From Kocuria atrinae C3-8 (GTDB lineage Bacteria; Actinomycetota; Actinomycetes; Actinomycetales; Micrococcaceae), in assembly GCF_000286355.1 (NCBI RefSeq), contig NZ_AJXN01000030.1:1-64000 (forward strand): 64,000 nucleotides of DNA, in the 5' to 3' direction. Shown here in pieces: positions 26,174 to 29,795 of this stretch; positions within the stretch are counted from its first letter, which is position 1, and each line of letters begins with the position of its first letter. The notes under the pieces are model-generated. The model ran no database searches, had not been told where the DNA came from, and worked only from the letters and a program-made list of their open reading frames with translations. A program made the position numbers and the translations under genes.

Positions 26174-26177
26174 GAGG

Positions 26178-26387
26178 TTACTGGCCGCCCTTCTGGACGA
26201 AGCCCTTCACGAAGGCCTCAGCGTTGGTTTCAAGCACGCCGTCGATCTCGGCGAGCAGGTCATCGGTGCCCTGGGTGTCGCGCTGGGCCTGACCCGCGCC
26301 CTGCGACGGCGCCGGGGTGCCGTTGTCGGGCAGGTCGGTTTCTTCCTCGCGGCGCGAGCCCTGGCCGAAAATTCGTTCCTGTGCCAT
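26178..26387 (-). CDS. pup: Prokaryotic ubiquitin-like protein Pup
   Basis: A 69-residue intact protein ending VKGFVQKGGQ. The GGQ end means it must be deamidated to GGE by Dop before ligation by PafA. The N-terminal half is disordered (ETDLPDNGTPAPSQGAGQAQ), and the helical part (TDDLLAEIDGVLETNAEAFV) is the region that binds the ARC/Mpa coiled coil. AGGAGA precedes the ATG. It lies between dop and pafA on the same strand. Confidence 0.97.
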   Translation of the reverse strand: MAQERIFGQGSRREEETDLPDNGTPAPSQGAGQAQRDTQGTDDLLAEIDGVLETNAEAFVKGFVQKGGQ

Positions 26388-26427
26388 GTGTCTCTCCTGA
26401 ATCTTTCTGTGCTTCAAGTATCGGTAC

Positions 26428-28101
26428 TCAGTTGATGCCGGTTCCGGTGACCGTGCCGGGGCGTTGTGCGGCCACCCGATGTACCCACTGTTCAACATCC
26501 GGGGCGTCGAACCATTCCCGGGTGCTCTCGCGGGTGAGGTCCAGCGGTTCGGGCATGCCGATGCGCGCGCCCCTGCGGATACCGGGGAATTCCACGTTCA
26601 CACTGTCCCAGCCCACGCTCACCATGGCGGACGGGTAGCGGCGCACGGCGGTGCCGCGGAACCACGCACGGGTGTCCTCGGGTGGTTGATCCGCCGCGCG
26701 TTCGATGGTTCCGGAGTCGACCAGCGTGCGGATCCGTCCGGCCCCAGCCAGCCGGTGGTAGAGCCCCTTTTCAGGGCGTACGTCCGCGTACTGCAGGTCG
26801 ATGGCGATCAACCGGGGGTCGTTCCACGCCATGCCGTCGCGCTGCCGGTACGCGTTGAGCAGGGCGTACTTGGCGGCCCAGTCGAGTCGGTCGGCCAAGC
26901 GGGAGGGGTCTTCCGCGAGGTCGGTCAGCACCTCGTCCCACAGGTCCAGTACCTGCTGGGTGTCCCGGTCCAGCCCGTCCGGCGCCAGTTCGCGCTCCAG
27001 GTCCAGCGCGGCACGGTAGTACTCACGCTGGATGTCGACGGCGCTCAGCTCGCGGGCGTCGCGCAAGGGCACGGTCGCAGTCACACTCGGGTCGTGGCTG
27101 ACCGTCTGCAGGGCGGCCACGGGATCGACCAGGTCCAAGTCGGGTATCCGATCGTGTTCGATCAGGTTGAGCACGAGCGAGGTGGTGCCGAACTTCAACA
27201 GCGTGGCCGTGTGGGACAGGTTGGCGTCACCAATGATCACGTGCAGCCGGCGGTACTTGGTGTCGTCCGCGTGCGGTTCGTCGCGCGTGTTGACGATGGG
27301 GCGGTGGATGGTGGTTTCCAGGCCCACGGTGCGCTCGAAGAAGTCCGCGCGTTGGCTCAGCTGAAAGCCCGGTTCGGAACCGTCCACCCCCAGGCCCACG
27401 CGGCCGGCACCGCACATGATCTGGCGGGTCGCGAAGAACGGCAGCAGCGCCGCGGTGATCCGATCGAAGGGCACCGCGCGGTCCACCACGTAGTTCTCGT
27501 GGGCACCGTAGGACACTGACTTATTGTCCGTGTTGTTCTTGTACAGGTTCACGGCCGGAGTCCCCGTCTTTTCAGCACCCCGCGTGAGATCCTCCACGGC
27601 GCGCGCGGCCACCACGTCTCCCGCGGCATCCCACGTGAGCGCGTCCAGCGGGGTGGTGACCTCCGGTGAGGAGTACTCCGGGTGCGAGTGGTCCACGTAC
27701 ACGCGCGCCCCGTTGGGAATCACGGTGTTCATGATGACCTTCCGCCAGTCCATGTCCTCCGTGTACATCGCGGACTCGGTGATGGCCTCCGCCGCGATTT
27801 CCTCGGCGGTCAGTACCGGGGCTTGATCGGTCAGCTGCGAGGGGTGAGCTTGTTCACGACTCATGGTGTACCCGCGAGCATCGGACAGCGGCGCCTCGGA
27901 ACCGTAGTCCCAGCCGGTGCCCACGCTCGTTTGCCCGCCCGAACCGTTCTTTCCAGAAGATTCCCGGGACAGTTCCCGTGCCACCCGCAGCGCATAACTG
28001 GTCACCACCCGCGTGGACAGCACGGTGGCATTGGCGTGGGGCTCCCCCACGGCCAACACGCCGAACTCCGTCTCACTGCCCATGACCCTGCGGACGCTCA
28101 T
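26428..28101 (-). CDS. dop: Deamidase/depupylase Dop
   Basis: Dop converts Pup-Gln to Pup-Glu and removes Pup from substrates. It is homologous to PafA but longer, 557 residues intact. The N-terminus has MGSETEFGVLAV, then the Dop-specific loop of about 40 residues (from SGKNGSGGQTSVG to SDARGY), then YVDHSHPEYSSPE and LYKNNTDNKSVSYGAHENYV. The ATG overlaps the arc stop as ATGA, so translation is coupled to the ATPase gene. Confidence 0.96.
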   Translation of the reverse strand: MSVRRVMGSETEFGVLAVGEPHANATVLSTRVVTSYALRVARELSRESSGKNGSGGQTSVGTGWDYGSEAPLSDARGYTMSREQAHPSQLTDQAPVLTAEEIAAEAITESAMYTEDMDWRKVIMNTVIPNGARVYVDHSHPEYSSPEVTTPLDALTWDAAGDVVAARAVEDLTRGAEKTGTPAVNLYKNNTDNKSVSYGAHENYVVDRAVPFDRITAALLPFFATRQIMCGAGRVGLGVDGSEPGFQLSQRADFFERTVGLETTIHRPIVNTRDEPHADDTKYRRLHVIIGDANLSHTATLLKFGTTSLVLNLIEHDRIPDLDLVDPVAALQTVSHDPSVTATVPLRDARELSAVDIQREYYRAALDLERELAPDGLDRDTQQVLDLWDEVLTDLAEDPSRLADRLDWAAKYALLNAYRQRDGMAWNDPRLIAIDLQYADVRPEKGLYHRLAGAGRIRTLVDSGTIERAADQPPEDTRAWFRGTAVRRYPSAMVSVGWDSVNVEFPGIRRGARIGMPEPLDLTRESTREWFDAPDVEQWVHRVAAQRPGTVTGTGIN

Positions 28102-29795
28102 GACCGCTCCCCTTCGGCGAGCGCTCCGGTGCCCCGATGAACGGCGATCCGCACGTCCTGGATCGTGTTGGCCCGGCGGCCGGTCAGGCGTGCCCAGTCC
28201 TCGGGATCCGCGGTGTTGGGCAGGTCCTGCTGTTCGTAGAACTCTTCGTCCACGGCGTCCACCAGGTGCTCGCGGGTCAGACCGCGCTCGCCCGTGGTCA
28301 GCAAGGTCTTGATGGCCTGCTTCTTGGCGCGGTCCACCACGTTGCGGATCACCGCGCCGGAGGCGTAGTCGGCGAAGTACAGGGTTTCCTGACCGCCGTC
28401 CCGGTAGGTGATGGTCAGGAACTCCGTGGCCGAGGTGCGGTCGTACATGTGGGCGATCGCTGCGTCGATCAACTGATCGGCGGCGGCCTCTCGGGAACCC
28501 GCCGCGGCGACGTCGGCCTCGCGCAACGGCAATTCCGGGGTGACGTAGAGCTTGAAGATTTCGCGAGCGCCGTCGCGATCCGGGCGGTCGATGCGGATCT
28601 TGACGTCCAGCCGGCCGGGACGCAGCACGGCGGGGTCGATCATGTCCTCGCGGTTGGTCGCACCGATCACGATCACGTTGTCGAGCTTCTCCACGCCGTC
28701 GATCTCGGTGAGCAGCTGCGGCACGATGGTCGTTTCCACGTCCGAGGACAGGCCCGAACCGCGCACGCGGAACAGCGAGTCCATTTCGTCGAAGAACACG
28801 ACCACGGGAACGCCGCGGGCGGCCTGTTCGCGCGCATTGGCGAAGATCGAACGGATCTGGCGCTCGGTCTCACCCACGTACTTGTCGAGCAGCTCGGGGC
28901 CCTTGATGTTCAAGAAGTACCCCAGGGCGCGTTCGCGTCCGGCCTTCGCGGCACTGCGTTCGGCCAACGAGCGCGCCACCGCCTTGGCGATCAGCGTCTT
29001 GCCGTTGCCGGGAGGACCGTAGAGCAGAATGCCCTTGGGCGGGCGCAGGCCGTGCTCGCGGTACATGTCCGGGTGCACATAGGGCAGTTCCACGGCGTCG
29101 CGGATGGCCTCGATCTGGGTACCCAGGCCACCGATGTCCGCGTAGCTGACCTCCGGTACTTCTTCCAGGACCAGCTGTTCCACGTCCGTGCGTTCCACGT
29201 GCTCCAGGGCGAATCCGGTGCGGTGGTCCACGGTCACGGCGTCACCGGGCTTGGGGCGGTTCCGGCGCAGCGCCCCGGAGAGCAGCATGACGCGTTCCTC
29301 GTCCGAGCGGCCCACGGTCAGCACGCGGTCGTGGTCGATGATCTCTTTGATGGTGGCCACTTCGCCCACGCGGTCGTAGTCAAGCACCGCGGCCACCACG
29401 TAGTTCTCGTTGAGCAGCACCCCGATCCCCGGTTCGCACGAACTCAACGACACGAGCGGGCTCACGGCCACGCGCATCTTCCGCCCGGAGACCAGCACGT
29501 CCAGGCTGGCCATGGTGATCACCGGACCATCTCCCGTGGCCGTACCCACGGGCTGGTGCCCGGGATTGACCTGCTGCACCACACCGAAACTCATGGGCGG
29601 AACGGCCTCAGCGGCCAGCGTCTGCTTGAGTTTGACGATCTCCTGCCGCGAGGCATCCAGCAGGCGCACGAGCTTCTGGTTCTGCGAACCCACGCTCGCG
29701 AGTTGCTTGTCCAGATTGCGCTTCTGGTCGCGCAGCATATTGATCTGCCGCTGCGTGTTGTCGGTGGCCCGGTTCTCCGGGGTGGCGTCACTCAT
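28098..29795 (-). CDS. arc: ARC/Mpa-type AAA ATPase without proteasome-docking tail
   Basis: A 565-residue intact member of the family that binds pupylated proteins and unfolds them. It has an N-terminal coiled coil (residues about 12-60), tandem OB domains, Walker [12 protein letters not shown] near residue 265, Walker [14 protein letters not shown] and the second-region-of-homology motif [19 protein letters not shown]. The protein ends [11 protein letters not shown]. Proteasome-activating Mpa proteins end in a penultimate-tyrosine motif such as GQYL, absent here. Because the stop overlaps the dop start as ATGA, the end is unlikely to be an error. This resembles the corynebacterial ARC. Confidence 0.94.

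Follow-up and report, generated by a model that had tools for sequence, protein, structure and literature searches.

Pupylation in Kocuria without detected 20S proteasome genes, and the looser coupling of ARC tail and 20S core in Micrococcaceae

A pupylation locus without genes for the 20S proteasome raises the question of what its ATPase, ARC (Mpa), does, and of whether the loss of the 20S genes goes together with the loss of the C-terminal motif by which ARC docks on the 20S core. We have considered this question for a locus in a stretch of 64,000 nucleotides from Kocuria atrinae C3-8 (contig NZ_AJXN01000030.1, positions 1 to 64,000; the window) and for its relatives in the family Micrococcaceae. 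We judge it likely that the locus encodes proteasome-less pupylation of the Corynebacterium kind, in which ARC would be a free-standing unfoldase and Dop would recycle Pup, and that, in the clade to which Kocuria belongs, the loss of the ARC tail preceded that of the 20S genes. Across the family, tail and 20S genes are correlated yet separable in both directions, and this separability is what is new here.

A pup locus without 20S genes

The genes stand on the minus strand in the order ARC, dop, pup and pafA, followed by an FKBP pair and then a PafB-PafC type regulator. ARC (28098..29795, minus strand, as are all genes of this paragraph) is an AAA ATPase of 565 amino acids with OB and AAA Pfam domains (TIGR03689, 737 bits), and its stop shares an ATGA with the start of dop (26428..28101), the depupylase/deamidase gene (TIGR03688, 602 bits, cut-off 492). 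Pup (26178..26387) has 69 amino acids and a C-terminal GGQ (TIGR03687, 67 bits, cut-off 41). It is separated from pafA, the Pup ligase gene (24757..26173, GTG start at 26173), by a strandless gap of 4 bases (26174..26177). The original prediction had pointed to such a gap of four bases at the place where mycobacteria have prcB and prcA, and the coordinates (26177-26174) confirm it. This position is held by prcB and prcA in proteasome-bearing relatives as well, and in 10 such loci of the family that were measured the pup-pafA gap, with prcBA in it, is about 1.5-1.6 kb.

The genome assembly of the strain (G000), 3.2 Mb in 221 contigs, is a draft with a completeness of 79%, and this might suggest that proteasome genes are present but missing from the assembly. 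However, a search for the 20S subunit family PF00227 gave no match, either in G000 or in the genus as a whole (0/27 genomes, G000 included). Of these 27, 25 reach a completeness of at least 90% with a contamination of at most 5%; in addition, pup and pafA are a few bases apart (approximate distances) in 18/18 named Kocuria loci that hold both. Because the same search detects 20S genes in 239/395 genomes of the family, in 19/32 genera, the method works in close relatives. Draft incompleteness is therefore rejected as the reason for the absent proteasome, its probability being practically negligible, and the earlier statement that no proteasome subunit gene occurs in the window now extends to the searches of the genome and the genus. 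The genus (g1) was taken as Kocuria from the match of its ARC to that of Kocuria carniphila, the closest named ARC at about 98% identity (97.5-98%; among the best 80 of 493 named ARC loci). Bpa (PF10759) was searched in four of the 27 genomes (G000, G005, G036 and G061), with no match and, for G000, the same outcome in a second search; ARC was found in 27/27.

In the window assembly, pafA is not one open frame. It falls into three pieces, and the two larger ones (TIGR03686, 386 and 200 bits) are each below the whole-protein cut-off of 551, which might be taken to mean that a frameshifted ligase gene, one that does not read through, has left this strain without a working pathway. Compared with three Kocuria relatives, however, single-base gaps lie not only in pafA (near 26130 and 25353) but are scattered over unrelated neighbouring genes as well (near 30252, 31070, 33637 and 35237), and in the 18/18 other Kocuria loci holding pafA (19 loci; one contig ends earlier) its frame is open over the full length, so that the pafA gaps are probably assembly errors rather than true frameshifts and a dead pathway is very improbable. 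Because the assembly seems prone to indels, its frameshifts should not be read as pseudogenes. The gaps also break a TrmI-like methyltransferase gene, a putative cysS and others.

The ARC of the window ends GALAEGERS (28101..28127, minus strand) and lacks the GQYL 20S-docking motif. This end had been predicted to be no artefact on account of the ATGA overlap, and the prediction holds. That a frameshift removed the tail is rejected, as no GQYL-like end occurs in any of the three frames; such an origin is also countered by the 3' end of the gene, where no frame-changing gap is seen relative to K. carniphila (L011) and to L013, and relative to L012 there are just two 2-base gaps, near 28115-28125, that compensate each other. 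Nor does G000 hold a GQYL-tailed paralogue, which was also looked for: one ARC lies above the family cut-off, other AAA matches fall far below it, and there is no second ARC. Among the best 80 of 493 named ARC loci, which were compared for the C-terminal tail, GQYL is found in 0/19 from Kocuria vs 61/61 from elsewhere (Arthrobacter, Pseudarthrobacter, Paenarthrobacter, Sinomonas, Tersicoccus and one other Micrococcaceae); Kocuria is thus tailless in 19/19 named loci.

The second known ATPase-20S contact is a beta-grasp hairpin loop, 501-ANGDK-505 in M. tuberculosis (PMC9599533). The position of Asp504 (M. tuberculosis numbering) is acidic in 34/34 tailed 20S-bearing members of the family, in one tailed genome without 20S genes (G008, see below) and in 19/19 tailed outgroup rows (18 GQYL, one GHYL). 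It is acidic in 3/41 tailless family rows (G001, G013 and G023; one of the 41 is gapped there), and in the ARC of the window it is G. Both known ARC-20S contacts, the GQYL tail and the beta-hairpin loop, are thus changed in Kocuria.

This state resembles that of Corynebacterium, as the original prediction had proposed, and in this respect it is of a kind already described. The C. glutamicum locus likewise has pafA immediately after pup, retains dop and ARC, and lacks the 20S genes as well as the docking motif of the ATPase (PMC3511204 and PMC8223512). According to a 2012 review, 20S genes are absent from some actinobacteria, corynebacteria among them, in which pup directly precedes pafA and the ATPase is kept, and ATPases of organisms without the 20S have no C-terminal motif (PMC3511204). 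A 2021 review treats the missing 20S of a subgroup as secondary loss, the figure legend concerned including C. glutamicum and Micrococcus luteus (PMC8223512), and a further paper has Kocuria rhizophila among the abbreviated species names of a figure legend (PMC6017811). Therefore, the proteasome-less state of Kocuria is one of a known kind, to which a well-sampled genus is added. Unlike C. glutamicum, Kocuria sits in its own tailless Micrococcaceae clade, and 8/27 genomes of the genus have no ferritin of the non-heme-ferritin-like class, the kind of known C. glutamicum substrate. With the mycobacterial Mpa-PrcBA system the locus shares the Pup, Dop, PafA and ARC/Mpa families and PafBC-type and FKBP neighbours, but it has no prcBA and no GQYL tail, no Bpa was found in the genomes searched, and the beta-hairpin loop is changed. 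The Arthrobacter-type Pup-proteasome locus, from the same family, has the same gene order and an ARC about 57-60% identical, but in the loci examined that ARC ends GQYL (61/61 named loci) and prcB and prcA lie between pup and pafA where this was measured.

Tail and 20S genes across the family

A panel of 77 genomes was compared, comprising 70 from 32 genera of the family and 7 more from genus g21. Of the 39 with 20S genes, ARC is tailed in 34 and tailless in 5, whereas the 38 without 20S genes include 36 with a tailless ARC, 1 with a tailed one and 1 (G067) whose ARC runs into a contig end. The original prediction had held that the two losses agree and had suggested comparing ARC C-termini in members with and without prcBA. 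The expected correlation is there (34/39 tailed, 36/38 tailless), but neither a strict rule nor a single coupled loss stands, because five genomes have the 20S without the tail and one has the tail without the 20S. The coupling is looser than that prediction or published generalisations suggest.

In the 70-genome panel, Bpa has a match in 28/35 20S-bearing vs 1/35 20S-less genomes, and a search of the five tailless 20S-bearing genomes gave 0/5. Six other genomes (G015, G025, G045, G053, G057 and G069) combine 20S genes and a GQYL-tailed ARC with no Bpa match, a result that a second search repeated for G015, G025 and G057. In the 2021 review, Bpa is said to co-occur strictly with 20S genes (PMC8223512); the 20S-bearing genomes without a Bpa match, together with the reverse case of G008, depart from this. 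Propionibacterium acnes, with 20S genes and neither ARC nor Bpa, has already been named as an exception (PMC4254994).

G008, which is 99% complete and the single genome of its genus compared, keeps the tail without the 20S: its ARC ends GQYL, PF00227 has no match, and a partial Bpa match is present (E 4e-33). In its locus (L170, G008:C9:77500-85900), a single open frame extends over the pup-pafA interval of roughly 269 bases; it starts PrcB-like (43% over 53 aligned positions, E 3e-8) and then passes directly into the end of PrcA (56% over 32, E 8e-11), E-values that were computed for a 300-base target and are hence flattering. The frame reads as the scar of an internal deletion that would have joined the start of prcB and the end of prcA in frame. 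In the G008 lineage, the 20S was lost first, with the tail still present.

The opposite state, 20S genes beside an ARC without GQYL, is found in G001, G093, G110, G155 and G167. In G001 (L143, genus g2; one contig, 100% complete) and in G093 (L190), G110 (L189) and G155 (L188) of genus g21, prcB and prcA lie between pup and pafA. G167 (L187, also g21; 71% complete) has PF00227 matches and, after pup, a short prcB-like start (19 residues, E 8e-4) that runs into a contig end. Contamination is 7% in G155 and 4% in G093 and G110. In the remaining five genomes of g21, the locus lacks prcBA and PF00227 has no match.

The 20S genes of g21 look selectively maintained, a view that the sequences support through low ratios of nonsynonymous to synonymous substitution rates (dN/dS). 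For the G110/G155 pair, dN/dS is 0.05 for PrcB and 0.06 for PrcA; for G110/G093 it is about 0.11 for both, at a synonymous rate (dS) of 1.3-1.6 that is near saturation; and three tailed pairs give 0.11 to 0.21. Arg26, Lys52 and Glu119 of PrcA, which contact the GQYL motif in M. tuberculosis (PMC9599533), are conserved in 28/28 PrcA compared, including the four readable tailless cases of the family. What speaks against maintenance is that the g2 and g21 rows sit on long stems in the PrcBA tree (1.21 and 1.29 changes per column), so that there may have been an earlier change in constraint.

Outside the family, where the 20S was judged from the locus alone and in 20 of 36 genomes of other families, two loci from another family of the order (L237 in G399 and L238 in G417) hold prcBA beside a tailless ARC. 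Their ARC ends read ...DPDLL or ...NSDLV and have no tyrosine motif, and they are possibly a second independent case of a 20S beside a tailless ARC. In five tailed loci of other families (L226, L227, L228, L230 and L235), neither prcBA nor pup was found in the stretch compared, which is probably too short or differently arranged.

Among the matches listed, mainly from the open literature, titles and the starts of abstracts yielded no paper on a tailless ARC beside a 20S in Micrococcaceae, which is weak evidence of novelty, and no paper was found in the open literature that joins proteasome, pupylation and Micrococcaceae.

The order of loss

ARC trees were built with the tail removed from the alignment and rooted on other families; like the tree of PafA and Dop, they are quick searches without bootstrap. 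In the ARC tree the family falls into two clades, one tailed with some losses and the other tailless wherever the end is known, and Kocuria and the five tailless 20S-bearing genomes fall inside the latter in both ARC trees and in the PafA+Dop tree. In the first ARC tree, the tailless clade comprises 39 rows, including three long tailless rows of the outgroup, with a support of 97 in the Shimodaira-Hasegawa-like approximate likelihood-ratio test (SH-aLRT); the tailed outgroup did not form one side of a branch there, and the tailless L218 fell among it. The second ARC tree, from which 8/27 outgroup rows and G067, with its truncated ARC, were dropped, gives a tailless clade of 35 rows with an SH-aLRT of 100. 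The PafA+Dop tree of 61 rows recovers the same grouping with 34 rows (SH-aLRT 93); out_L232 was dropped from it (the same frame had been picked for both genes), and K. carniphila replaces the window, whose pafA is broken.

The approximately unbiased (AU) test rejects joining g2, g16 and g21 to the tailed clade at p-AU 1.7e-87, for a group that was named once the first tree was known. A second AU value, p 5e-81 for the tailless 20S-bearing rows with the tailed clade, comes from a comparison that splits genus g21; it is unfair and is not relied on. If no gene is regained, the ARC tree requires 3 losses of the tail and 10 of the 20S, 7 of these inside the tailless clade. As 20S-bearing genomes lie within the tailless clade, a single loss of the tail, before that of the 20S, is probable in Kocuria's clade.

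It could instead be that the 20S was lost once, early, in the ancestor and that the g2/g21 ancestor regained it. A history with one loss of the 20S, one regain and two subsequent losses has fewer events than one with seven losses inside the clade, and the PrcBA tree weakly nests g2/g21 with g17/g22/g30 (87/97), on long stems that are possibly misleading; both points count against a tail-first order. However, a position of the g2/g21 PrcBA outside the tailed rows is not rejected (p-AU 0.397). Relative to 10 outgroup rows, the g2/g21 copies fall with the family (18 family rows in one clade, 100/99); within the family, the PrcBA tree favours neither descent nor transfer. Overall, we give even chances to the fuller account in which ARC in this clade lost GQYL, and mostly the acidic hairpin contact as well, before the 20S, in which g21 and g2 (a single genome) keep a 20S with no activator or a new one, and in which G008 took the opposite course.

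A probable free-standing ARC

In the alignment, the ATPase motifs of the window ARC are intact: we take GPPGNGKT to be its Walker A motif, FFDEMD its Walker B motif and KYVG its pore loop. The pore-loop motif follows PMC8755798. Because these motifs are intact, because neither 20S genes nor Bpa were found and because both contacts with the 20S are changed, a free-standing ARC, which probably acts on its own, is supported, and the earlier suggestion that pupylated proteins may be unfolded or remodelled by ARC fits this result. From the genes we infer the enzyme activities, the unfoldase role of ARC and the recycling of Pup as follows. Dop would deamidate PupQ, and PafA would then couple deamidated Pup to lysines of target proteins. 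ARC would bind the pupylated proteins and unfold them or dismantle their complexes, with no hand-over to a 20S core, and Dop would remove Pup from the targets, so that it could be reused. In the ancestor of Kocuria's clade, to judge from the trees, the ARC tail would have been lost first, and the 20S genes later and separately in several genera.

An ARC-dependent disassembly of pupylated ferritin has been proposed for C. glutamicum, which has no 20S (PMC8223512). The PF00210 matches of the genus split by E-value into a stronger class (at most 1.4e-30) and a weaker one (3.6e-23 to 1.5e-18, plus one 9e-13 fragment). The stronger-class ferritin of G000 is non-heme-ferritin-like, with an NF007638 match below its cut-off; the weaker class in G000 presumably resembles Dps, only PF00210 having matched. 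The stronger class occurs in 19/27 genomes of the genus and is absent from 8/27, of which six are at least 99% complete and the other two 94% and 76%. Since ARC is kept in 27/27, ferritin does not explain its retention everywhere, and ferritin release is rejected as its sole role. This uneven distribution tells against a free-standing unfoldase of the Corynebacterium kind, as does the fact that the pafA of the window is broken as assembled.

Two other readings concern what becomes of the pupylated proteins. With no 20S gene found, no docking motif and Dop present, pupylation might be a purely reversible mark, with ARC acting elsewhere and not on pupylated proteins. However, ARC is present throughout the genus, overlaps dop in the window and retains its ATPase and pore-loop motifs, and its retention beside pup would be hard to explain without a shared role; we regard this reading as unlikely. 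Less likely still is that ARC passes pupylated proteins to another compartment protease, for example ClpP or Lon. Degradation would preserve the usual logic of the tag, and no finding here points that way; ARC ends vary among Kocuria species and thus provide no common new docking tail, although no motif search for docking on other proteases was made. A free-standing ARC that works on pupylated proteins remains the reading that we prefer.

The genes downstream of pafA, all on the minus strand, are two FKBP-type prolyl isomerases with PF00254 (copy 1 at 23622..24647, copy 2 at 23170..23598) and a fused PafB-PafC type regulator (21049..23169), a single protein with PF19187 (HTH_PafC), two WYL stretches and WCX and with no NCBIfam match. 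In addition, a PAC2-family protein (PF09754) is encoded near the locus, at 32128-33162 on the plus strand of the window, although the genome has no detected 20S gene. PAC2-family genes, related to the eukaryotic proteasome assembly chaperone PAC2, are reported near Pup-proteasome loci, in Corynebacterium too (PMC2588565).

Finally, it should be noted that the family offers intermediates in both orders of loss. If the account given above is true, ARC and the 20S became separate machines, and the 20S was shed repeatedly in other lineages, including that of Kocuria. The exceptions concern two rules found in published reviews, namely that ATPases of organisms without the 20S have no docking motif (PMC3511204) and that Bpa and the 20S strictly co-occur (PMC8223512), and they matter for inferring proteasome function from genomes. 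With these neighbours one can directly study the roles of pupylation and ARC where the proteasome is missing, and that of a bacterial 20S to which the ATPase no longer docks in the usual way.

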